Program-made: the position numbers and the translations under genes
The notes under the pieces: generated by a model
Databases searched by the model: none
What the model saw: only the letters and a program-made list of their open reading frames with translations
Told to the model about the DNA's origin: nothing
DNA from: Deltaproteobacteria bacterium
Lineage (GTDB): Bacteria; Desulfobacterota; Binatia; HRBIN30
DNA length: 37,615 nucleotides
Direction: 5' to 3'
NCBI GenBank assembly: GCA_017860575.1
Contig: JAGDMS010000006.1
Location: forward strand, 1 to 37,615
Part shown: piece after piece, positions 360-37,615 of the stretch
Layout: each line of letters begins with the position of its first letter
Numbering within the stretch: the first letter of the stretch is position 1

Positions 360-809
360 TTAGTTCGCCACGGGCTTGCCCGTCGGATAGATCGTAACGG
401 TTTTGAAGTCCCCGGCGGGGTCCTGGAGCCTGAACGTGACAGTCGTGGGCGGATTCAGTAGCCCGCGCGCATCGTAGGTCACGGTGATTGGATTGTCGCT
501 CGCGATGGCGATGCCGGGACCGTAGGTGTCTAGGTTTTCGGTGTAGTAGGTCGTCGATCCACTCAAGTCGGTCACCTGAATTGACGCGGGTGGGGTAAAC
601 ACCATGCGTCGCGGCGTATTGCTGGCGATTGCCCCGCCACGGGTCCGGTAGAGCGCGCTTATCACCTCGCGCTGAGCGCTGACCAGGCTGGCTTTATTAC
701 GCAACGTGCTCACCGCCGGCACGGCAATGGTATAGAGCACTCCAACAATGCCGAGTGTGGCGACAACCTCGACCAGCGAAAAGCCGTGACTTGACCGAAG
801 GGGCTGCAT
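360..809 (-). CDS. Type IV pilus minor pilin, FimT/GspH-like
   Basis: Class III prepilin leader HG/FSLVEVVATLGIVGVLYTIAVPA; about 150 aa; in operon with other minor pilins. Confidence 0.85.
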   Translation of the reverse strand: MQPLRSSHGFSLVEVVATLGIVGVLYTIAVPAVSTLRNKASLVSAQREVISALYRTRGGAIASNTPRRMVFTPPASIQVTDLSGSTTYYTENLDTYGPGIAIASDNPITVTYDARGLLNPPTTVTFRLQDPAGDFKTVTIYPTGKPVAN

Positions 810-810
810 G

Positions 811-2109
811 CTAGCGAAACTGTTGGAAGGTGAGTAACTGCAGCGGCATGACCGCCGCGGCGTACCGGTTTAGGTTGGTGGTGCTGTACTGCATCAGCGA
901 GTTCCCGCCGCCATCGTCCTTGTACGATGGGATGCCCACGTATTCAGGATTCGTGGCCCAGGGTGTCTTGATGTTGGCCACCAGCGTGGTGCCGCGCATC
1001 CATCCCGGACCGTTGCCGGTGTGTTCGTAGCTTCCCGTACCGATGGCCAGCATCAAGCCGTCGTACTGAAACCCGCCGTTGAATTTCAGCGCGCCGGTCA
1101 CCAATATGATGCCCGCCCCGGTCCAGTTGTTGGGGAACGACGCATCACCATCGATCGCAATGATCTTCGGATTGCTGGTGCTGCCGCCGGTAAAGCCGGG
1201 GTCACTCAAGGAATGGAAATCGGCGGCTTCCGTGACGCTCTTGACGAGCTGTTTGAGGTACTTCACTCGAATCAAGCGTGGATCGCCGACGAGCAGCGGC
1301 ACATTGGCGCTCACCGGATCGTAGGGGTTGTCGGCAGTCGGCAGGAAGTTCTCCGTTGCGGTGCCCGTAAACGGAAGACAGCTCTGGTAGGAGGTGGGTC
1401 GCTTGTCGACGATAGCGGCATCAACGAGCGCTCGCGCAGCGTTCGTGGTGACGGCGACCGTCGGAAAGCATCCACTTCCACCGACGTCAACTCCGGTCAC
1501 CTGGCGCGCGTTGCTGCTGAAGGTGCCAAAATTTACGGACGGGCCGGGCAACACGAGCACGCCCGGCATGCTGCGTCCCGCCAGAAAGGCATCAAAGACC
1601 TTGAGCTGTTCCTGCACGGCGGCGAGCGCCCCGCCCGGCATGCTGGCAACCGACGTAATCATGATCCGGTTGTTTGTGTCGGTTTTCGATTTGACGCTGG
1701 CCGCTTGAGTGAGTGCGCCGGGTTCCGTGCGGTCATTCGTGAGGAAGACCTGGAAGGTGCCCGACGCGAAGCTCGTAGGAGCGATCAGTGGCTTGTTCGT
1801 GGTCGCGTTGGAAAGGCCGGTCGAGCCGTTCAAGGCGGAGTAAACGGTGGCATCGATGAGGTCGCCGTTGTTCGCCGCGTCCAGAAGTTTCTGATTGAGC
1901 GTTGCGCCCGCGCGGAGTTGGGCACGCAGGGTTTCGCGTGCATACTCAGCACCGGCTGCCGCGACCGACCGTGCGCCCTTACTGAGCCGATCCATACCGG
2001 ACACCCGCAGGCTCGCGACCGAGTTCTGTAATACCGCGAGTCCGAGAACGGTCAGCAGCACGAAGGCGAGCAGCGCAAAGACCAAGGCCGCGCCCTGCTG
2101 ATCCGTCAT
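811..2109 (-). CDS. PilX-like pilus assembly protein
   Basis: N-terminus MTDQQGAALVFALLAFVLLTVLGLAVLQNSVASLRVSGMDR typical of PilX_N; ATG at 2109 preceded by GAGG; the ORF-track start at 2166 overlaps the upstream gene. Confidence 0.75.
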   Translation of the reverse strand: MTDQQGAALVFALLAFVLLTVLGLAVLQNSVASLRVSGMDRLSKGARSVAAAGAEYARETLRAQLRAGATLNQKLLDAANNGDLIDATVYSALNGSTGLSNATTNKPLIAPTSFASGTFQVFLTNDRTEPGALTQAASVKSKTDTNNRIMITSVASMPGGALAAVQEQLKVFDAFLAGRSMPGVLVLPGPSVNFGTFSSNARQVTGVDVGGSGCFPTVAVTTNAARALVDAAIVDKRPTSYQSCLPFTGTATENFLPTADNPYDPVSANVPLLVGDPRLIRVKYLKQLVKSVTEAADFHSLSDPGFTGGSTSNPKIIAIDGDASFPNNWTGAGIILVTGALKFNGGFQYDGLMLAIGTGSYEHTGNGPGWMRGTTLVANIKTPWATNPEYVGIPSYKDDGGGNSLMQYSTTNLNRYAAAVMPLQLLTFQQFR

Positions 2110-2122
2110 CAATTGCCTCGGC

Positions 2123-2770
2123 TTACGAACAGGTGGGAAGGACATTGGCTTGCCTCGTTCCGACATCGCCCTTGAGGGTTCTGGTGACGACGCTTCCCTT
2201 GTAGGTGCCGGTGCCGGTCAATCGGGTTGAGATGTACGTCGTGGTGCCGGTGGTCAGCACCTCCTCCGCCGTCTGTTTGGTGATGACCGCAGTGCACGGA
2301 TCCACGCGATAAAAGGTGAGTGAGAATCCCGTCACCCCGGCTGCCACCGGCTGCGGGGTCGCCGGAGTCCATCCGCCCACACCGCTCCACGCCTCCTGCG
2401 TTCGCATCAACTTGCCATCGACTACCGCATAGCTGATGCGCTCGGAGACGTTGTCAGCGTTGACGTCGCCGACAAACACAATGCTATCCGCCTGCGTGTC
2501 GGCAACCAGCCCTTGAAAAACCGGCTGGGACACGCCGTCGGTGATATAGCCCGCCGCCCGCAGGTCATCTTGCAGGAGAACGATCGCGGTCGCGACATCG
2601 AGCTGAGCATCGACCATCCGAGACTGGTAGCCGACCGAGTTGAAGGTGCCGCTCACCAGCGCCGTGGTGGCGGCACCGACAACGGAGAACAGGACAACGC
2701 TCACCATTACCTCGCTGATGCTCATGCCACGCTGATTGTCGATGCGTCGGGGTATCATCGCGAGCGCCAT
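2123..2770 (-). CDS. PilW-like minor pilin
   Basis: QRG/MSISEVMVSVVLFSVVGAATTALVSGTFN prepilin helix; ATG at 2770 overlaps the upstream stop (ATG/TGA), so translational coupling is likely; the longer ORF start at 2911 is unlikely. Confidence 0.8.
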   Translation of the reverse strand: MALAMIPRRIDNQRGMSISEVMVSVVLFSVVGAATTALVSGTFNSVGYQSRMVDAQLDVATAIVLLQDDLRAAGYITDGVSQPVFQGLVADTQADSIVFVGDVNADNVSERISYAVVDGKLMRTQEAWSGVGGWTPATPQPVAAGVTGFSLTFYRVDPCTAVITKQTAEEVLTTGTTTYISTRLTGTGTYKGSVVTRTLKGDVGTRQANVLPTCS

Positions 2771-3243
2771 CAGAACCCGACAGCCCGGATCGTCGAAAAA
2801 ACGACCCGGTGCTGCAGGTTGTATTTGGTCCAGCTCACTCGGACGGCGATGGTCTTCGTGAACGGAAGCGGAGTGTTGTCCGATATCTTCCAGGTGCGAG
2901 TGTATCCGCACTTCTCACCGCTACAGGTGGTGCCGTCCGGCGCCAGCGGATTGGCATTGCTCAAGGTCGCGCTGGGCGCCACATAATCGGAGGTCGCAGC
3001 GAGACGGGGATCGCTATAGGGGATGGCGTTGACCTTATCTGCCAAGTCCATCGCCAGTGCCGAGGCCGCGAGGAATCCGTACGACCGGACACCGTTACGC
3101 ACGCCACTGCTTTGAACGTAGGCCAGGGGCATCAGAGCCAGGCTCAGCAGAGAGACAGCGATGAGCACCTCCAGCAACGAGAGGCCCGCCTGGCCGCTCA
3201 GCCGCTGGGAAGACGAGGCTGGCATCGGCGCCCGCACGAGCAC
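2770..3243 (-). CDS. PilV-like minor pilin
   Basis: QAG/LSLLEVLIAVSLLSLALMPLAYVQSSGVRNG prepilin motif. Confidence 0.85.
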   Translation of the reverse strand: MLVRAPMPASSSQRLSGQAGLSLLEVLIAVSLLSLALMPLAYVQSSGVRNGVRSYGFLAASALAMDLADKVNAIPYSDPRLAATSDYVAPSATLSNANPLAPDGTTCSGEKCGYTRTWKISDNTPLPFTKTIAVRVSWTKYNLQHRVVFSTIRAVGF

Positions 3244-3246
3244 ACC

Positions 3247-4254
3247 TTAGATGTCGCGGATAACGCTAGCGACCGCAGTGGGCGTGCCGCCGAGCGTCAC
3301 GCTGCCGGTGGGGCGCAGCGAGTTCGGCTTGAGTTGATAGAAGACCAAGCTGCCGCTGCCGTAGTTGGGAATGAGAAGCGAGTTGCCATGTGGTGTGACG
3401 TTGAGTTCGTACGGCGATGCCGTTGCACCCATGCTGATGGTACGATCCAGTGAGCCACTCTTTCGGAGGAAGGAGACGGTACCGTCGTCGGAATTTGTGA
3501 CATACACCGCATCGACCGTCGGGTCCGGATTCACGAGCACCGCCCAAGGTGCCGTCCCGACAGTGGTCGTGCCGGAGATTGTGCCGGTCGCCGTCGCTAC
3601 GACTGTTACCACACTGTTGTTGACGTTGCTGACGTATGCGATGCTGCCGTCAGGAGAAAGAGAGACATACCAGGGGAAGTCGCCGACCGGGATTTCTCCC
3701 GTCACCGTGAGCGAGGTCGCATCGATGACCGAGAGGGTCCCGGAGGCCCGGTTCGTCACATAGATTGGCGTGCCCCCCGGGGCAACGGCAATGTGCCCGG
3801 GGAAGCTGCCTACCGCAACCGTCGCGCGGACGCTCCGACTGGCCGTGTCAACCACGGAGACGCTGTTGGAAAACGTGTTGGCGACGTACAGGGTGGCGCC
3901 GTCCGGGCTCAGCGCGATACCCTCGGGCGCCCCGCCTACCGGAATATTGGCAACCGTCGCATTCAAACTCGTCGCGATCACCGAGATCGAATTCGATCCC
4001 CGATTGCTGACATAGAGGGTTGTCGAATCAGGCGACGCTTCAATGTCCACAGGCGTGTTTCCCACCGGAATCGCCGTTAGAATATTGATAGTGTCGATAT
4101 CAACGACCTGGACCACGTTGGTCGTTGTGTTGGTCACATAGGCAACGGTTCGAAGGGTGGCGTGAGCGGCTCCAAGTGGAGCGATGCCCATGGCAAGACC
4201 CACCATCATGAGTGTCCACCGAGATGCATCCCGCTTGGAAGGCGACGTATTCAT
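3247..4254 (-). CDS. YVTN-family beta-propeller secreted protein
   Basis: Repeated AYVTN...VVDIDT..., LYVSNRGSNSISVI..., LYVANTFSNSVSVVDTASR...; signal peptide; GGAGAGGAG ribosome-binding site ahead of ATG at 4254 (MNTSPSKRD). Confidence 0.9.
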   Translation of the reverse strand: MNTSPSKRDASRWTLMMVGLAMGIAPLGAAHATLRTVAYVTNTTTNVVQVVDIDTINILTAIPVGNTPVDIEASPDSTTLYVSNRGSNSISVIATSLNATVANIPVGGAPEGIALSPDGATLYVANTFSNSVSVVDTASRSVRATVAVGSFPGHIAVAPGGTPIYVTNRASGTLSVIDATSLTVTGEIPVGDFPWYVSLSPDGSIAYVSNVNNSVVTVVATATGTISGTTTVGTAPWAVLVNPDPTVDAVYVTNSDDGTVSFLRKSGSLDRTISMGATASPYELNVTPHGNSLLIPNYGSGSLVFYQLKPNSLRPTGSVTLGGTPTAVASVIRDI

Positions 4255-4383
4255 TGTAGGCTCCTCTCCCTTCGGCACTGCCCACCTTCGACAAAAGCAA
4301 TCGACATGCCGCTATCTCAGGGCGTACGAAGGTGTGATGGCGGCAGCCGTCAAACTTGCACCCCTGATGAATCGTCGCCGGAG

Positions 4384-11875: not shown

Positions 11876-12047
11876 CCGGTGTCACCTAACCTTTCCAGAG
11901 CGATCGCTTGCCCGAACAGACGAGAACGCACCAGCGCAACCGTACGAAAATGTCAGCCACTTATCACGCAGGGCGTATTGCTTGCTAATGCCGCGCGTCG
12001 TTGCAGGTGGCATGCGAGTTGCTGCCCTCCAGCGGTCGGGGGGATTG

Positions 12048-14498
12048 ATGGCCGACACAAACGGCGATCTAGCGTTGCTGCGATTCTTGGCGCGGACCGG
12101 CGTGCTCACCAATGATCTGGCGCAGGTTGCCGAAGCGCAGCTCCCAAATCTCGCGAACGGCAGAAACCTGATCGACGTCCTCCGCGACAAGGGCGTGCTG
12201 CAGGAGGACGATTTAGCCAAGACGCTCGCCAGCAAGCTGCAGCTGCCGTTTGTCGACTTGCCGACCGTGGCGTTGGACTCGACCATCGGCGCCTTGCTCA
12301 AGGAGGAGTTGGCCATGCACTACAAGGCCGTCCCCACAGGTGTCGACGGCCCAACGTTGACCATTACGATGGCGAATCCGCTCGACCACGCGGCCATTCG
12401 CGCCATCGAATTCGCCACGGGCAAGCGCGTGCAAATCGGCGTCGCGGCACAAACGGCGGTACGTGATGCTATCGATCATCTCTACCATCTGGAGGAAGCG
12501 CTCGACACCTACCTGAAGGGGATTCCCGGGGACGGCGACGCCCCGATCGCCGAACTGCGGGAGGGCTCCGCAGCGGACATCCGGGGGCTGGAGCGCGACT
12601 GCCCCGTTGCCCCCGTGGTCAAGCTGTTCAATTCGATTCTGCGCGAGGCCTTGCGCACCGGCGCCAGCGATATCCACATCGAGGCGACCAGCACGGGGCT
12701 TCGCGTCCGCAACCGCGTCGACGGACTGCTGGAGGAGTTTTTGCGGCTGCCGAAGTGGGTGCAAGACCCTCTCATCGCACGATGCAAGGTGCTCGCCAAA
12801 CTCGACATCACCGAGCGCCGCGTCCCGCAGGATGGCCGTATCAAAATTCGCTACGGCGACTCCGTCGTGGATCTGCGGGTGTCGAGTCTTCCGACACAGT
12901 ACGGTGAGAAGGTCACGATGCGGGTGCTCGACTCCGGCACAGCGCCCGCCAACCTGGAAAAGTTCAGTTTTGCCGAGCGTGAACTCGGCTGGATTCGCCA
13001 CGCCATCAAACGGCCTGAGGGACTCGTTCTGGTCACCGGCCCGACCGGCAGCGGTAAGACCACCACGCTCTACGGCATGATCGCTGAGGTGGTCGCGCCT
13101 GAGCGCAACGTCGTCACCATCGAGAATCCGATCGAGTACCAGATGGAGGGCGTCAATCAGGTCGAGATCAACGATAGGCAGGGACTCACGTTCGCCAGCA
13201 CCCTACGTTCGATCCTCCGGCAGGATCCGGATGTCATTCTAGTGGGGGAGATCCGGGACACAGAGACCGCGGAAATCGCGCTGCGGGCGGCGCACACCGG
13301 GCATCTGGTGCTCAGCACGCTGCACACCAATGACGCGGTGGCCACGATCACACGGCTGCTCGATCTGGGAATCGAACCGTACCTGTTGGCCTCGGCGCTG
13401 AATCTGGTCATTGCGCAACGCCTGGTGCGGCGGGTGTGCGCACACTGCGCCGCACCCGACGAACCGGATGTCGCCGCGCTGCGTCGACTGGAGATCCACG
13501 ACGGCAACCATCAGTTTCGCCGCGGCCGCGGCTGCAAGCAGTGCCGTGGTTCAGGCTATGCCGGTCGGATCGGCATTTTCGAGGTGATCCCGATTACCGC
13601 TCGCATGGGTCGATTGATCGAGAAACGTGCCCTGGAAAGCGCGATGCGCGCGCAGGCGCGGGCCGATGGTACTGTCTTCCTGTCCACCCACGCCGCGCAC
13701 AGGGTGTGCGCCGGTATGACCACCGCGGACGAAGCCCTCCGCATTGTGGATGTCGGTAACCAGCAGCCTCGTTGCCCGTCATGCAACCACTCGGTCGAGG
13801 ATACGTTCGCCGTCTGCCCCCATTGTGCGACCGTCCTGCGCCGGAACTGCGGGAACTGCGGCGTGCAGCTCGATGAGGAGTGGCGGATCTGCCCGCACTG
13901 TGCCACGCCGGTGCGGCAACGGATATCCGCCCCCGCGCCGGTCCAGGAACCCAAGGCTCCCGCACCCGGACCCCCGGCCACACTCCAACCTCTCCCCGCG
14001 CTCGGCCCCGTCGTCACCCCGTCGACCACGGCGCGTCAGTTCCGCGCTCTGGTCGTTGACGATCACGCCGACATGCGCCGCTTGATTTCCCTGGCACTGG
14101 AGCGCAGCGGGCTTCCGATCCTGGTCAGCACCGCTGAAAATGGGATTCAGGCGCTCGAGCAAGCCGGCCACGATCCACCCGACCTCGTACTACTCGACCT
14201 CATGATGCCGGGCATGGATGGCTTCGAGGTCTGCCAACAATTGCGCGGAAATGTCCGCACCGCCTTCGTGCCCATCTTGATGCTCACGGCGCGCAATGAT
14301 GCGGCCAGCCGAGCCCGCGGCTTCCTCGTCGGCACCGACGACTATGTCAGCAAGCCGTTCGCGCGCGCCGAGTTGGTCGCACGGGTCCGCCGGCTGATCG
14401 AGCGAACGTACGGAACGGTCCTGACCACAGGATCCGACGTCGTGCCCACAGCGGCTGACGACACCGTCACACGCCCGCTCGGCGTCTCACTGCAGTAG
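12048..14498 (+). CDS. GspE/PilB-family secretion/pilus ATPase fused to double zinc ribbon and response-regulator receiver domain
   Basis: MshEN-like N-terminus; Walker A GPTGSGKTTTLY; Walker B DPDVILVGEIRD; CAHC/CKQC zinc motif; then RCPSCNH..CPHCATVLRRNCGNCG..CPHC; Pro-rich linker; REC domain (ALVVDDHADMR..DLVLLDLMMPGMDG..LMLTAR..YVSKPF). GGGGGG ahead of ATG at 12048. Confidence 0.9.
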   Translation: MADTNGDLALLRFLARTGVLTNDLAQVAEAQLPNLANGRNLIDVLRDKGVLQEDDLAKTLASKLQLPFVDLPTVALDSTIGALLKEELAMHYKAVPTGVDGPTLTITMANPLDHAAIRAIEFATGKRVQIGVAAQTAVRDAIDHLYHLEEALDTYLKGIPGDGDAPIAELREGSAADIRGLERDCPVAPVVKLFNSILREALRTGASDIHIEATSTGLRVRNRVDGLLEEFLRLPKWVQDPLIARCKVLAKLDITERRVPQDGRIKIRYGDSVVDLRVSSLPTQYGEKVTMRVLDSGTAPANLEKFSFAERELGWIRHAIKRPEGLVLVTGPTGSGKTTTLYGMIAEVVAPERNVVTIENPIEYQMEGVNQVEINDRQGLTFASTLRSILRQDPDVILVGEIRDTETAEIALRAAHTGHLVLSTLHTNDAVATITRLLDLGIEPYLLASALNLVIAQRLVRRVCAHCAAPDEPDVAALRRLEIHDGNHQFRRGRGCKQCRGSGYAGRIGIFEVIPITARMGRLIEKRALESAMRAQARADGTVFLSTHAAHRVCAGMTTADEALRIVDVGNQQPRCPSCNHSVEDTFAVCPHCATVLRRNCGNCGVQLDEEWRICPHCATPVRQRISAPAPVQEPKAPAPGPPATLQPLPALGPVVTPSTTARQFRALVVDDHADMRRLISLALERSGLPILVSTAENGIQALEQAGHDPPDLVLLDLMMPGMDGFEVCQQLRGNVRTAFVPILMLTARNDAASRARGFLVGTDDYVSKPFARAELVARVRRLIERTYGTVLTTGSDVVPTAADDTVTRPLGVSLQ

Positions 14499-30692: not shown

Positions 30693-32513
30693 CTAGTCTC
30701 CGTTCCCCAAATGATCCGGCGGTTGCCGCGGCACACGCACCACCACCGTCGTGCCCTTCCCCACCGCTCCCGAGATTGTACATGATCCGCCGACCAATTG
30801 GGCGCGCTCCTTCATTCCCAATATGCCCAAGGAGTGCTTGCTCTCGGTCATGCTCGGGTCGATTCCACGCCCGTTGTCCTGCACGGTGAGCACGAGTGCA
30901 TCTTCGCTGCCAACAAGGTCGATCTTCACCTCCGTCGCCGCCGCATGGCGCACCACGTTGGTGAGCGCCTCCTGCGCGACACGGAACAGGGTCATGGCAA
31001 CGGTGCTGTTGCACGGCTCCTCGACCTGGCGCAGGTCGAGGATGACTGCGAGCCCGGACTGCGCTTCGAATTCGCTCGCCAACCATTGCAAAGCGGCCGC
31101 GATCCCCAGACGGTCGAGCACCGTGGGACGCAACTCGGACGCCAGCCGGCGTACAAATTCGATCGCGCCTTCCACCCGCTTTATCATGTCGGCGACGGAC
31201 TGTTTCATGGCGTGGGCGCAGTCGTGGTTGCTGTCGGGCGCGCAAATTCTCTGCAGCCGCGTCAGCTCGATCGTCACACTCGTCAGCACCTGGCCAAGCT
31301 CATCGTGCAGCTCACGCGCGATGCGTCCAGCTTCGGTATCCCGAGCGACTTGAAGTCGCTGCGACAGGGCCCGGAGTCGCTCTTGAGCCGCACTCGCCTC
31401 CCGATGCCGTGCGGCGAGCGCATCCGCCATGCCGTTGAATGCCTCAGCGAGATCACGCAACTCGCCTTGGCTACCGGGAAGCGTCGCCCGAGCCGAAAGG
31501 TCGCCAGCGCCGAAGCGGCGCGCCGTGTGGGACAGGCCGCGCAGCACGCGCAGGACGGACACTTCGGCCGCCGCGATACCCACCGTCACCGTGAATAACG
31601 TCAGAAACAACAGGCCGATCATCGTCCGGTAGAAGGCCCTGTTCGCCTCGGCTTGTACGCGTTCGTAAGGCAGACCGACCACCGCAAACACGCCGCTGAT
31701 ATCCTCTATCGGCGTCGCGACGACGAATCGTCTCACGTGCCGCTCGCCGATCTCCAGGACCGCTCCCTCCACACGATGCAGCACGTGTCGGAGCCCGGGA
31801 ATCGTGGGCGGCCCGCCCGGGGTTCCGGCTTCCACATCGCCGGACCGAGCCAGGATCCGACCTTCCCGATCGGTGATGAGCAGGGCGTAGTCCTGGGGCA
31901 GCTTGGCCTGCTGCGCCAGCCGGTCGAGCCACCGCAAGTCGAGGGCGACGAAAGCGACCTTGCATGGTTCCCCACCCGCATCGCGCACCGCGTAGGCTAC
32001 CCGCAGCACGGGCCGACCGACGATCGGCCCGAAGACGTAGGATCCGACCTCGGGGTTCTCCGATGCCAGCGCGCGCTCGAAGGCGGGATCGCCGGCGATG
32101 TTGAGCGGATGGTCGACACCGACCGCGCTGCAGAGCAGTCCGCCATGAACGTCGAGCACCGCGATGGTCGCGAACTGCGGCAGTCCCGCCAGCAGCGCCG
32201 GCAGATAGTCCGGACAAGGTGGTGCGGCCGTGCCGGCAGCGTCGCAGGCTAGCGGTTCCCGGAGACGCAGCAGGAGATCCCTGGCGCCCTGCAGCTGGTG
32301 CGCATGCTCCCGCGACGCGAGGCCGCCGAGCTGACGCGCCTCGGTCTCCATCCGTTCCATGGTCGCCTGACGCTCTCGGGCGGCGACATAGAAGATGAAC
32401 AATAGCGCCGGGACGGTGGCGAAACAGACGAGCAGTATCAGGCGCCCCCGCAACGTGACGAAAAGGGACAAATAGCGGCGCGCAACCGAACTGGTGGTCG
32501 CCAGTGGCGTCAT
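30693..32513 (-). CDS. Sensor histidine kinase (NarX/DegS-type HisKA_3) with extracytoplasmic sensor domain and HAMP
   Basis: TM RLILLVCFATVPALLFIFYVAA; HAMP; RIARELHDELGQVLTSVTIELTRLQ; HATPase NVVRHAAATE, VQDNGRGI, GILGMKERAQLVGG; ATG at 32513 (MTPLATTSS). Confidence 0.88.
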   Translation of the reverse strand: MTPLATTSSVARRYLSLFVTLRGRLILLVCFATVPALLFIFYVAARERQATMERMETEARQLGGLASREHAHQLQGARDLLLRLREPLACDAAGTAAPPCPDYLPALLAGLPQFATIAVLDVHGGLLCSAVGVDHPLNIAGDPAFERALASENPEVGSYVFGPIVGRPVLRVAYAVRDAGGEPCKVAFVALDLRWLDRLAQQAKLPQDYALLITDREGRILARSGDVEAGTPGGPPTIPGLRHVLHRVEGAVLEIGERHVRRFVVATPIEDISGVFAVVGLPYERVQAEANRAFYRTMIGLLFLTLFTVTVGIAAAEVSVLRVLRGLSHTARRFGAGDLSARATLPGSQGELRDLAEAFNGMADALAARHREASAAQERLRALSQRLQVARDTEAGRIARELHDELGQVLTSVTIELTRLQRICAPDSNHDCAHAMKQSVADMIKRVEGAIEFVRRLASELRPTVLDRLGIAAALQWLASEFEAQSGLAVILDLRQVEEPCNSTVAMTLFRVAQEALTNVVRHAAATEVKIDLVGSEDALVLTVQDNGRGIDPSMTESKHSLGILGMKERAQLVGGSCTISGAVGKGTTVVVRVPRQPPDHLGNGD

Positions 32514-32616
32514 ACCCTTGCTTTCGTGTACCCCGCATCGATAGAACACGCCGCGCAACAGCGTCAAGCGCGCAGCGCGCAAGACGCATTGCGTACCCGG
32601 TGCGCCTCGTAGGAGA

Positions 32617-33060
32617 ATGCCAGAGACGGAACGAGGGATGAGCCAGCTGCAGATCGTCGTGAAAAACGAGCTTGCCGAACTCGAACGGGTCAGCCATGAG
32701 GTTGAGGCGTTCGGGGCGGCACATGGGTTCGCACACAAGGTGATCTTCCAACTCAACCTGGCGTTGGATGAGATTCTGACCAACGTGATCTCGTATGCCT
32801 TCACGGATGGCGCCGCGCATGACATCGTGCTGCGCCTTGCCGTGTCCGCCGGGGAAATCACGGTGGAAGTCGAAGACGACGGGCAAGCGTTCAATCCGCT
32901 AGATGTCGCCCCGCCGGCGTTGGACGCCCCGCTCGTCGAGCGGTCGGTCGGCGGTCTCGGCCTACATCTCGTGCGCCAAGTGGTCGACCGGTTGGCGTAC
33001 CGGCGCGAAGAGGGTAAGAACGTCCTGGTGTTGAAAAAGGCCGTGGCAACCAACCCCTAG
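32617..33060 (+). CDS. RsbW-like serine kinase/anti-sigma regulatory ATP-binding protein
   Basis: HATPase_c_2 signatures: LALDEILTNVISYAF, VEVEDDGQAFNPL, VGGLGLHLVRQVVDRLAYRRE. Confidence 0.88.
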   Translation: MPETERGMSQLQIVVKNELAELERVSHEVEAFGAAHGFAHKVIFQLNLALDEILTNVISYAFTDGAAHDIVLRLAVSAGEITVEVEDDGQAFNPLDVAPPALDAPLVERSVGGLGLHLVRQVVDRLAYRREEGKNVLVLKKAVATNP

Positions 33061-33092
33061 CGAGGCAGGCTGGCGAACGGCAGAAGGCGGAC

Positions 33093-33428
33093 ATGGAGAT
33101 CACGGAGAGCAAGAGGAACGGGGTTGTCGTTCTCGGTATCGCGGGACGGATTGACGCCACCAACGCCGGGGCATTTGAAGGAAAGCTGCTCGGCTTGATT
33201 GCGGCGGGCGAAAGGCGTTTTGTGGTGGAGTGCAGCCGGCTGGATTACATCAGCAGCGCCGGCCTGCGCACCCTGCTCGTGGCCGCCAAGCGGTTGGCCC
33301 CCACGGACGGCAAGCTCGCTCTGTCGGCACCCAAGGAACTCATCAAAGAGATTCTCGACATCGCCGGTTTCTCATCGATCTTTCCGATCTACCGTACGCA
33401 CGAGGACGCCCTCACCGCGCTGCGGTAA
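33093..33428 (+). CDS. STAS-domain anti-sigma factor antagonist (RsbV/SpoIIAA-like)
   Basis: VVVLGIAGRIDATNAGAFEGKL; conserved phospho-site region CSRLDYISSAGLRTLLVAAK. Confidence 0.9.
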   Translation: MEITESKRNGVVVLGIAGRIDATNAGAFEGKLLGLIAAGERRFVVECSRLDYISSAGLRTLLVAAKRLAPTDGKLALSAPKELIKEILDIAGFSSIFPIYRTHEDALTALR

Positions 33429-33526
33429 CGACGCCGTACCGCAATCGTGCGGGACAGCTGGCGCGCGGGCACCTGGCGCACGGCAGAGCGGGGCGTCCCC
33501 GGTCGCGAGCAGCGGGCCGGTGATCC

Positions 33527-34339
33527 CTACACGTACGCGCGGCGGAGCATTTCGGCGGCCGACTCGTCCAGCTGCTCGCCCCGGCGGACCTCCTCGAACC
33601 GTGCCAGCAAGTCGTCCGCACGCAATCGTCGCTTCTCCGCACCGAGGAAGTCGTGGATGATCCGCCCCCGATGCATCATCACGAGCCGGTCTCCAAGATT
33701 GGCCGCCTGTTGCATCGAATGCGTGACCATCATGGTGGTCAGCTGATCACGCGCAACGATCTCTTCGCTCATGCGGATGACCTGATCGGCGCTCTTGGGA
33801 TCGAGCGCCGCCGTGTGCTCGTCGAGCAACAGCAACTGCGGCTTCAACCAGGTCGCCATCAGCAGCGTGATGGCCTGCCGCTGTCCGCCGGACAATGTCC
33901 CCATCGCATTATCCAGTCGATTTTCGAGGCCCAGGCCAAGCCGCCGCACGCGCTCGTGCATCGCGTCGGCGAGGTCACGTCGTAGCGCCCACCCCAGACC
34001 GCGCCAGCACCCCCGCCGCGCCGCCAGCGCGAGGTTCTCCGCAATCGACATGTCCGGTGCAGTGCCGCTGAACGGGTTCTGAAAGACCCGGCCAACGAGG
34101 GTCGCACGTCGATGCTCCGGCCACCGCGTCACGTCGTGTCCGGCCAGCCGGATCGATCCGGCGTCGACGAAAAAGCCGCCGGCGACTGCGTTCAACAACG
34201 TCGACTTGCCCGAGCCGTTGGTGCCAATCACGATGACGAACGAACCGGGATCGACGGTCAGGCTGACTTGCTGCAGCGCGCGCACCTCGTTGGGGGTACC
34301 GGCGCTGAACGTCTTCGAGATGTTCGCAACCTCAAGCAT
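33527..34339 (-). CDS. ABC transporter ATP-binding protein (COG1101-like)
   Basis: Walker A GTNGSGKST; signature LSGGQRQ; Walker B LLLLDEHTAALD. Confidence 0.92.
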   Translation of the reverse strand: MLEVANISKTFSAGTPNEVRALQQVSLTVDPGSFVIVIGTNGSGKSTLLNAVAGGFFVDAGSIRLAGHDVTRWPEHRRATLVGRVFQNPFSGTAPDMSIAENLALAARRGCWRGLGWALRRDLADAMHERVRRLGLGLENRLDNAMGTLSGGQRQAITLLMATWLKPQLLLLDEHTAALDPKSADQVIRMSEEIVARDQLTTMMVTHSMQQAANLGDRLVMMHRGRIIHDFLGAEKRRLRADDLLARFEEVRRGEQLDESAAEMLRRAYV

Positions 34340-35270
34340 GGTCGGCCCGTGCCCCCTTCGGTCGCACGCGCGCCAGGAAATCCGGCAAAATGAGGGCCGC
34401 GAAGACGAAGGCGGCGGTGATCAACTTGAGGTCGTTCGGGTTCAGACCAGCACGCAACGCGATGGCGACCAGCAGCCGAAAGAGCACCGACCCCATCAGC
34501 GCGCCGGTAATCACCAACCCGAGTTGTGTTGACCCGACCAGCGCCTCGCCGATGATGACGCTTGCCAACCCCCACACCACCATACCAATGCCCATCTGCA
34601 CGTCGGCAAAGCCTTGATATTGGGCCAGTAGCGCGCCTGCCAGGCCGATCAGGCCGTTCGACAGCGCCAGGCCCAACACGATCATGTTCCCGACGTTGAC
34701 CCCGAGCGCGCGAATCATCTGCGGATTGTTGCCGGTCGCCCGCATCGCCGTTCCCAGGTTGGTGCGGAAAAACGCGTACAACGCACTGCTCACCACCGCG
34801 ATGATCAGGATCACCAGGATGAGCACTGACGCGTCCCGGACGGCAATTTCCCAATTCAACAGGTGCAACACTTCGCTGGCACCGAACAGGCGCTGGCCGA
34901 CGGCCTCGGCCGCCTGTGGGAAGGTCTTCACCGCCAGCAGCGGGACGTTGCTCTTGCCCATCACGTGCAAGTTGACCGAATACAGGGCCGTCATCACCAG
35001 GATGCCGGACAGCAAGCCGTTGATCCTGAACTTGGTGTGCAGCACCCCGGTCGTCGCCCCTGCCAGCACGCCGCCGCAAAAAGCCGCCGCCGTCGCCCAC
35101 AGCGGACTGATCCCCTTCACCAACAGGACCGCGGCAATCGCCGCCCCGAAGGTGATGGAACCGTCCGCCGTGATGTCCGGGAAATCAAAGACGCGGAAGC
35201 TGATGAAGACGCCCAGCGCCAGCAGGGACAGAATCAGCCCGATCGTCCAGGCACCGAGGAGCAGCGTCAT
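34332..35270 (-). CDS. ABC transporter permease (COG4120-like)
   Basis: MTLLLGAWTIGLILSLLALGVFISFRVFDFPDITADGSITFGAAIAAVLL; 8-bp overlap with the ATPase gene; ATG at 35270. Confidence 0.88.
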   Translation of the reverse strand: MTLLLGAWTIGLILSLLALGVFISFRVFDFPDITADGSITFGAAIAAVLLVKGISPLWATAAAFCGGVLAGATTGVLHTKFRINGLLSGILVMTALYSVNLHVMGKSNVPLLAVKTFPQAAEAVGQRLFGASEVLHLLNWEIAVRDASVLILVILIIAVVSSALYAFFRTNLGTAMRATGNNPQMIRALGVNVGNMIVLGLALSNGLIGLAGALLAQYQGFADVQMGIGMVVWGLASVIIGEALVGSTQLGLVITGALMGSVLFRLLVAIALRAGLNPNDLKLITAAFVFAALILPDFLARVRPKGARADHA

Positions 35271-35271
35271 G

Positions 35272-36516
35272 TCAGTCTCTTTCCAGCGCAACGTCCGTAA
35301 CCGGTGCGATCCAGCAGGCGCCACGCACGAACTCGCTCTGCCCGGTGCCGACGATTGCGCGGTCGTCATTGAGCAGATGCAGCACGCCTTGGAGGGTCTC
35401 GGCCTCGAATAGCGCCGCCACCGTCGGCCGCAGGTTGATCCGTCCTTTCTGGAGCGGCCGGTACGAGAACGCCGCGGCATGGAAGTGCCCGGCCGGCCAG
35501 GGTGCCGTTCCCAAAGGACGCAGCAATGGTGTCAACTCGGGACGGTCGGCTCGGGTCACCACACCAACGACCAGGGCCACGCTGCGCGGAAAGGCGCGCT
35601 CCGGCGTGAAGGACAGCCACTCGCGCACCTGGGGATGGGTGAAGGGAGCCGCCGCAACCGCTTCGAGCGCCGGTGACCGGCGGAGCGCCGCACCCATCAG
35701 GCCCGCGGATTCGCCGACCAGCACGACACCCGCGGTGTCCGACGCCGCGATGTCGAGAGCCGCATCGGCCAAGTCCGCGAGCGTCAACGCTCTCCCTCCC
35801 CCCTTCGCCTCGAAGCGTGTCAGCCAGGCAAAGCTGCCCTCGCACACCAACCCGTACAGCATGTTCAGCTCCGGCACGAGGGCGCCGGCCGACACCACAT
35901 AGTCCGGCACATTGGTCCCGTCGGTCGGGAGATACGCGGCGGCTCCGGCGGCCACGACGAACTCCCCGAAGCGGGCGCGGCAGTCGGTAAAGTCCCCTCC
36001 GAACGCGCCGAGCCCGACCCCGAAGGTGGATTCGGGAAACGCGCGGCGGTGGCAGTGGCGCGCCTCGAATCGCGCCCCCGAGAGCGGCTCGGGACTGCCG
36101 ACGACGTGACAGCGCACCCCACCCGCCGCGGTGACGTCGAACACCTCGAATGCCGCGGTGTCACGCTCGAGCATCCGCGCACGCGGCCGCTCCGCCGCAG
36201 AGGCCGCCGTCGGCGCCGCAGCTGCGAGCAGCGATTCGAGGCCCGCCAACGCCAGCACCGTCTTCACGGCGTCCGACGGATTGGAGACCACAAACGAACC
36301 ATTCAAACGCTGCAACTGCTTGTGGAATTTCAGCAGCACCCGGATGCCGACCGAGCTCATGTACGAGACGTCGGCCATGTTCAGCCGGATGCGATCGGCA
36401 CCATCCCGGATGACTTCTTCCAGTCCGCGGGTGAGATGGTCTGCCCAATAGGCATCCAGGCGCCCCTTGACCCGCACCTCGACGACGTCACCCGCCTGCT
36501 GCTTGGAAATCTCCAC
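35272..36516 (-). CDS. STAS domain fused to a ~300-aa C-terminal domain of uncertain family
   Basis: N-terminal STAS (VEVRVKGRLDAYWADHLTRGL...IRLNMADVSYMSSVGIRVLLKFHKQL); C-terminal region with FGVGLGAFGGDFTDCRARFGEFVVAAGAAAYLPTDGTNVPDYVVSAGALVPELNMLYG; operonic with ABC genes. Confidence 0.85.
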   Translation of the reverse strand: MEISKQQAGDVVEVRVKGRLDAYWADHLTRGLEEVIRDGADRIRLNMADVSYMSSVGIRVLLKFHKQLQRLNGSFVVSNPSDAVKTVLALAGLESLLAAAAPTAASAAERPRARMLERDTAAFEVFDVTAAGGVRCHVVGSPEPLSGARFEARHCHRRAFPESTFGVGLGAFGGDFTDCRARFGEFVVAAGAAAYLPTDGTNVPDYVVSAGALVPELNMLYGLVCEGSFAWLTRFEAKGGGRALTLADLADAALDIAASDTAGVVLVGESAGLMGAALRRSPALEAVAAAPFTHPQVREWLSFTPERAFPRSVALVVGVVTRADRPELTPLLRPLGTAPWPAGHFHAAAFSYRPLQKGRINLRPTVAALFEAETLQGVLHLLNDDRAIVGTGQSEFVRGACWIAPVTDVALERD

Positions 36517-36534
36517 GTTCCCCTTCTCCGATAC

Positions 36535-37615
36535 TCATTGGTTGGTCACGACGACACCGGGCCGCTGCAGCAGTGATTCCGGCAGCGTCAGCCTGGTCGC
36601 CCGCGCCGCCACCGGGTTGATGATGATGCGCGTCTTGTCGAGCGGTTGGAACGGAATCGTCCGCGGATTCTCGCCCCGCATGATGCGCGCCGCGATCTTT
36701 CCCGCGTCGCGACCGCCGTCGAAGTAATCACGCGCCACCACCACGCCGGCACCGGACAGGCTGTCACTGCTCAGTGAGCCGAACAGGGGCATGCGAGCCC
36801 GGCGCGCAGCCTGCGTGAGGCTGGCAAACGACGCGGTAGTCAGGTTGCCCGCAATCTGCACCACCGCGTCGATCCGCTGATTGCAGAGCGCCGCCGCCGC
36901 ATCGGACATTTCGGCGCTGGTGTTGGCCGCCACCGCCACCACCTCGATCCCCTGTTGGCGGGCCGTCTGCGTCAAGCGGTCCTTGTTGTAGACTGAGTTC
37001 ACTTCCGCGGGTACGAATAACGTCCCGATCCGGCGCACGCCCGGCAGGCACTCCCGAACCGTGGCAATCAGTTCGCCGTATGCGCTCGTCGTCGGCACTC
37101 CGGTCACGTTGGGCAGATGGTCCTCGTTGCTGCGGCCCGCTCCTGCCGCGATCGCGTCGGCAACGAACGTAAAGACGATCGGCAGATCACGCGTCCGCTG
37201 CACCGCCGCCTGCAACGTCGGCGTCGACAAGGTCATGATGAGATCGGTGCCGTCGCTTATGGCCGCGTCCACCAGGGCCCCGAGTGTCGGCATATCCCCC
37301 TGCGCATTGCGTATCCGAATGTGGTAGTCCCGCCCTTCCACCAACCCGGATTCCCGCAACCCCTCGCGGATGCCCTTCTCCCCCTCCTCCACATCCAGCA
37401 CGTTGATGTATTCCAGCACGTCCACCTTCCATGGCTTCGCCAGCAACCGCTGGGCGACCGTGAGATTCAGCGCCACCGTCTTCGTCGCGACGTTTGCAAT
37501 CGGCACGTCCTTCGGCTTCGCACCCAGCAAGACGCGGGCGGCCATCTCGCCCGCGGCGTATCCGGGCTGGTAAAAGCCGATGCCGACGCACGCCAGCACA
37601 CCTTTTTCCGCGATC
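36535..37615 (-). CDS. ABC transporter substrate-binding protein (COG2984-like), apparently tandem-domain; 5' end beyond the window
   Basis: Frame open to the right edge (...IAEKGVLACVGIGFYQPGYAAGEMAARVLLGAKPKDVPI). First ~55 aa resemble the C-terminal end of a binding domain, followed by a second full domain ending GVVVARDYFDGGRDAGKIAARIMRGENPRTIPF. Confidence 0.85.
   Translation of the reverse strand, partial: IAEKGVLACVGIGFYQPGYAAGEMAARVLLGAKPKDVPIANVATKTVALNLTVAQRLLAKPWKVDVLEYINVLDVEEGEKGIREGLRESGLVEGRDYHIRIRNAQGDMPTLGALVDAAISDGTDLIMTLSTPTLQAAVQRTRDLPIVFTFVADAIAAGAGRSNEDHLPNVTGVPTTSAYGELIATVRECLPGVRRIGTLFVPAEVNSVYNKDRLTQTARQQGIEVVAVAANTSAEMSDAAAALCNQRIDAVVQIAGNLTTASFASLTQAARRARMPLFGSLSSDSLSGAGVVVARDYFDGGRDAGKIAARIMRGENPRTIPFQPLDKTRIIINPVAARATRLTLPESLLQRPGVVVTNQ

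Follow-up and report, generated by a model that had tools for sequence, protein, structure and literature searches.

The stretch of DNA analyzed here (the window; 37,615 nucleotides) contains, at positions 12048–14498 of the forward strand, a single open reading frame of 816 amino acids without an internal stop. It encodes a PilB/GspE-type extension ATPase followed by a double zinc ribbon and a response-regulator receiver (REC) domain, an assignment that draws on Pfam, sequence motifs, and orthologues of the same architecture. An alternative in-frame TTG is found upstream at position 11982. A G-rich stretch lies shortly before the ATG at position 12048, and the orthologues align from this codon. 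The gene stands alone: it is flanked by a gene for an APH-family phosphotransferase on the upstream side and by SppA on the downstream side, and both neighbors lie on the strand opposite to it. When the window was annotated, no kinase or Hpt gene was found beside the motor gene, and no set of CheA, MCP, CheW, CheR, and CheB adjoins it. No gene for the inner-membrane platform protein (T2SSF) lies beside it, and structural genes for a pilus or a secretion system were not seen next to it.

Two other regions of the window were noted, both on the reverse strand. Prepilin-like genes (N_methyl, GspH-, and PilX/GspK-like) lie next to a gene for a beta-propeller protein at 360–4278, about 8 kb from the motor gene, with a LamG-domain reading frame further on; this cluster is a possible minor-pilin cassette. 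At 30693–37599, a dCache-HAMP-HisKA_3 histidine kinase is encoded in the vicinity of a STAS-domain protein and of ABC transporter components (substrate-binding protein, permease, and ATPase); from what could be seen, this region has no connection with the motor gene.

The protein begins with an MshEN-like domain (residues 64–151, positions 12237–12500; Pfam PF05157, E = 1.7e-17), which is followed by the T2SSE ATPase domain (residues 188–565, positions 12609–13742; PF00437, E = 3e-127). The double zinc ribbon (residues 576–622, positions 13773–13913) matches DZR at residues 576–618 (2.2e-7) and Zn_Ribbon_1 at residues 601–622 (1.8e-7); the scores of these short ribbons are modest, yet above cut-off. 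It contains four CxxC knuckles, at Cys-576/579, 590/593, 601/604, and 615/618. A Pro/Ala-rich linker (residues 626–660, positions 13923–14027) leads to the receiver domain (residues 668–781, positions 14049–14390; PF00072, E = 1.5e-29). The AlphaFold2 model has a mean pLDDT of 87, with the individual domains predicted confidently and the REC domain mostly above 95. The linker has a pLDDT below 50 and is predicted to be disordered and flexible, and the pTM of 0.61 makes the relative placement of the domains untrustworthy.

The ATPase domain contains a Walker A motif, GPTGSGKT (residues 331–338, positions 13038–13061), a Walker B motif, ILVGEIRD (residues 397–404, positions 13236–13259), an Asp box, DIHIE, at residue 208, and a His box at residue 416. 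The tetracysteine zinc site formed by Cys-464, Cys-467, Cys-496, and Cys-499 (positions 13437–13544) is kept in all aligned REC-bearing homologues. The best solved match for the motor core, by fold as well as by sequence, is Geobacter PilB (5TSG/5TSH). The receiver domain, whose nearest solved sequence relatives are the receivers of PleD, RpaA, and PhoP, carries the residues of a response regulator: the acidic pair Asp-671/Asp-672 (positions 14058–14063), the predicted phospho-acceptor Asp-717 (14196–14198), the switch residue Thr-747 (14286–14288), and Lys-769 (14352–14354). The layout proposed in the initial annotation, a continuous frame comprising an ATPase with Walker motifs and a tetracysteine site, four CxxC knuckles, a Pro-rich linker, and a receiver with acidic pocket, phospho-acceptor, and lysine, was recovered in every part by Pfam, the motif scan, and the model.

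By these motifs and domains, the protein is a motor of the PilB/GspE extension/secretion kind with a predicted intact ATPase. It scores below the curated cut-offs of both NCBIfam equivalog models, with 563.2 bits for PilB (TIGR02538; cut-off 675.65) and 536.5 bits for GspE (TIGR02533; cut-off 630.25). In a tree of motor domains, the REC-bearing proteins of the class to which the window genome belongs form one clade (support 99/91), separate from the PilB (contig C482) and the GspE (contig C509) encoded in that genome. The window motor is, on this phylogeny, a paralogue distinct from the housekeeping PilB and GspE. With PilB, the extension ATPase of type IVa pili, it shares the MshEN-like N terminus, the T2SSE core, the Walker, Asp, and His motifs, and the tetracysteine, but it has in addition the double zinc ribbon, the linker, and the receiver. 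Fold and motifs are likewise common to GspE/EpsE, the ATPase of type II secretion, but the window motor lies outside any gsp operon.

An MshEN-type domain also precedes the motor in the c-di-GMP-binding ATPases of the MshE type. The canonical c-di-GMP motif of this domain, RLGxx[LVI][LVI]xxG[LVI][LVI]x4Lx3LxxQ (PMC10333796), is absent from the N-terminal region of the window motor in both strict and relaxed scans. The motif scan also found it absent from the REC-bearing motors, whereas many REC-less relatives keep it. Its loss would fit a switch of motor control from c-di-GMP to phosphorylation, but it may simply reflect shared ancestry.

Among 148 genomes from this class, 17 encode a motor with a C-terminal REC domain, at 21 loci in at least eight families, and the homologues share about 40–66% identity. 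An RpoB tree places the class near Desulfobacterota sensu lato, beside a 'Proteobacteria bacterium' Centralia MAG, and the class may be Binatia; the rows for Azospirillum and G112 in this tree have extreme branch lengths, probably through extraction in a wrong frame, and are disregarded. No 16S gene was found in the window genome. Most copies have the double zinc ribbon; those of G041, G021, and G517 and copy b of G003 have one ribbon or none. The same C-terminal fusion occurs in two of 199 Acidobacteriota genomes, among the loci fetched, and neither of these proteins has zinc ribbons. No match was obtained at strict cut-offs, which weaker fusions could escape, among 299 genomes of Pseudomonadota and 201 of Chloroflexota, and a scan of the contigs of named genomes matched only unrelated REC domains, none fused to T2SSE. 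A single clade uniting all C-terminal fusions, Acidobacteriota included, is allowed by the motor tree (support 89/55); such a clade may exist, and the tree neither demonstrates nor rejects it. Motors that lack REC and end in a double zinc ribbon occur commonly in other parts of the phylum, so the REC domain seems to have been added to a motor that already had zinc ribbons.

The initial annotation had named a sequencing or assembly frameshift joining two genes as one of the findings that would undo its reading. The assembly of the window genome is indeed fragmented (601 contigs, with 6% contamination), but the same fusion recurs in many independently assembled genomes, in several families and in another phylum. 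A chimera or frameshift is ruled out by this recurrence, and we give virtually no credence to an error at this locus.

Several variants of the architecture were encountered. In a genome of the same phylum (G112; L223, 7229–9667, reverse strand), the REC domain is placed at the N terminus of an MshEN-T2SSE-DZR motor, and a HisKA/HATPase kinase gene lies directly upstream. A motor from the clade of the class's REC-bearing proteins (G012; L136, 9013–11418, forward strand) has one zinc ribbon and, where REC would stand, a GHKL-type HATPase_c_2 domain (7e-7); it may be a motor equipped with an anti-sigma-factor-like kinase module. In family f10 (L124, L125, L129, and L130), the motor, zinc ribbon, and REC are followed by a tail of about 650 residues that is rich in Ala, Glu, and Arg and resembles a coiled coil, with a C-terminal end that is conserved in three of the four members. 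The motor-REC genes of G001 (L122) and of G003 copy b (L134) are interrupted by an in-frame stop and are either pseudogenes or the result of sequence errors in the assemblies.

Although the window copy stands alone, genes for phosphotransfer lie beside the motor-REC gene in a number of relatives. An Hpt gene is located 24 bp downstream of it in G002; in G001, of the same genus, there are two Hpt genes, the first 9 bp downstream. Copy b of G010 is followed by two Hpt genes, the first at 12 bp, and then by hybrid PAS kinases. The motor gene of G008 (L119/L149) heads a full chemosensory cluster in the order motor-REC, Hpt, Hpt, CheA, MCP, CheW, CheR, CheB-REC, and CheY-like, with a 4-bp overlap between the start of the first Hpt gene and the motor stop. 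At these four loci the first Hpt thus starts between −4 and +24 bp from the motor stop. Other neighbors are a HisKA kinase after copy a of G010, a hybrid kinase with three REC domains and Hpt in G541, a divergent kinase at G003 copy b, and a convergent PAS kinase at G016 copy c. A hybrid kinase comes immediately after the motor in the two Acidobacteriota copies, in one of them with Hpt.

Counted together, a kinase or Hpt gene lies within 1.5 kb of 10 of 23 REC-bearing motor genes and of none of 51 REC-less ones (Fisher's exact test, p = 1.6e-6, a value that overstates independence because the loci are related by descent). The motor tree provides only three independent pairs, all in the same direction, too few for a sign test to become significant. 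The Hpt genes of these loci were also the source of the Hpt model behind the count, and Pfam independently confirms them. The linkage is missing at the remaining 13 of 23 REC-bearing loci. Because the types of kinase and Hpt differ between loci, the pattern suggests that signaling genes joined the motor-REC gene repeatedly and are not one inherited operon.

The conservation of the receiver pocket bears on what the domain does. The DD/D/T (or S)/K pocket is complete in 19 of 21 aligned copies and is partly lost in G016 copy b and in G021, with the residue equivalent to Asp-717 present in every aligned REC-bearing homologue. The ATPase motifs are intact across the aligned copies except for one Lys-to-Arg change in Walker A, in a copy whose receiver pocket is also damaged. 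We consider it likely, from sequence comparison, that the motor is also a response regulator, with a phosphorelay acting on Asp-717 and thereby altering the motor, so that cells would probably steer it by direct phosphorylation of the built-in receiver. A histidine kinase, often via Hpt, would phosphorylate Asp-717 of the tethered receiver; in G008 this kinase would probably be a CheA-based chemosensory array. The phosphorylated receiver would then change the activity of the hexamer or its docking on the pilus or type II secretion platform, which would make the ATPase a direct output of the phosphorelay. The phosphotransfer, an activating or inhibiting effect of it, and the driven machine are what we infer here.

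The long disordered linker of the model would also suit a tether, and the receiver could instead be a tag by which the motor is docked or localized at a pole or hub without regard to phosphorylation, in the manner of the degenerate FimX REC, which is without its Asp yet affects localization (PMC11656802). The loss of pocket residues in two copies agrees with such a role, but a pure tag would need neither the full pocket kept in 19 of 21 copies nor the linkage to Hpt and kinase genes, and we regard it as unlikely. Hpt genes placed directly after the motor gene are compatible with transfer in either direction, and further REC domains occur at some Hpt-linked loci. The receiver could also be an upstream relay or sink that passes phosphoryl groups to a downstream Hpt and on to another regulator, the motor reporting to the signaling system. 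It is hard to see what a mechanical ATPase would gain from a relay REC if the motor were neither the input nor the output, and the window copy is without a linked Hpt; this direction of flow seems improbable to us.

Direct histidine-kinase control, as the initial annotation had proposed it, draws support from the comparative genomics of the relatives and from the pocket, but not from the surroundings of the window copy, which is unlinked. The orphan kinase for which it had suggested a search was not found adjoining the window copy; kinase or Hpt genes do lie beside the motor-REC gene in relatives, where Hpt proteins and kinases of the phosphorelay or chemosensory type are linked as often as a simple orphan kinase. 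Under the phosphorelay reading, the window motor would probably take its phosphoryl group from an unlinked kinase or Hpt. The window genome, which is about 94% complete, encodes one stand-alone Hpt elsewhere (contig C528; L145, 1564–2010, reverse strand), which is a candidate partner and nothing beyond that.

The machine that is driven is a guess, because no structural gene for a pilus or secretion machine was seen next to the motor. A conserved neighborhood that would name one machine was sought and rejected, as the motor neighborhoods are not conserved apart from the signaling genes and pointed to no dedicated pilus operon. Three T2SSF loci were found in the window genome: one with PilB/PilT-type ATPases (contig C482), one with type II secretion genes (contig C509), and one beside a more distant ATPase, probably of the Tad type (contig C592). 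Because each of these loci has its own ATPase, the window motor probably shares a type IV pilus or type II secretion platform.

Receivers that act on pilus motors in trans have been published, and each domain of the window protein is already known. The single-domain response regulator EmvR of Xanthomonas oryzae binds PilB and lowers its ATPase activity by about 40% in a non-competitive manner, an effect that requires Asp-15, Asp-59, and Thr-87, the phospho-acceptor Asp included (PMC11973254). As in the window protein, a receiver with a phospho-acceptor Asp is paired with a PilB-type ATPase, but EmvR acts in trans, whereas the window receiver is covalently part of the motor. In the Pil-Chp system, PilG and PilH act on PilB, and the separate CheY-like receivers mainly affect its localization (PMC12632253). 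A CheA-type kinase there controls pilus extension via receivers, and the motor gene of G008 likewise heads a full Che cluster; the receivers are separate in Pil-Chp, whereas the motor-REC proteins carry their own, with stand-alone Hpt genes beside the motor gene in relatives. In Synechocystis, a phosphomimic form of Rre6 binds PilT2 (PMC7656254).

The initial annotation had found the architecture unfamiliar, and no paper on T2SSE with zinc ribbon and REC, no report of a PilB/GspE motor with its own REC, and none of a chemosensory operon headed by such a motor was found in a library of open-access papers. The architecture may well already stand in domain databases.

A wider scheme is plausible, although we would lean slightly against it: the motor class would act as a terminal response regulator in which a CheA or hybrid kinase passes phosphoryl groups via Hpt to the motor REC, phosphorylation of each subunit gates extension without diffusible CheY or c-di-GMP, and the C-terminal module is varied within the lineage, where REC is replaced by a GHKL-type ATPase or followed by a coiled-coil-like tail of about 650 residues. 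For the question of how a chemosensory system acts on a pilus motor, a built-in receiver would leave a single purifiable protein to study, on which the state of phosphorylation and the ATPase activity could be measured side by side. If the proposed control is true, a mechanical motor joins the list of response-regulator outputs.
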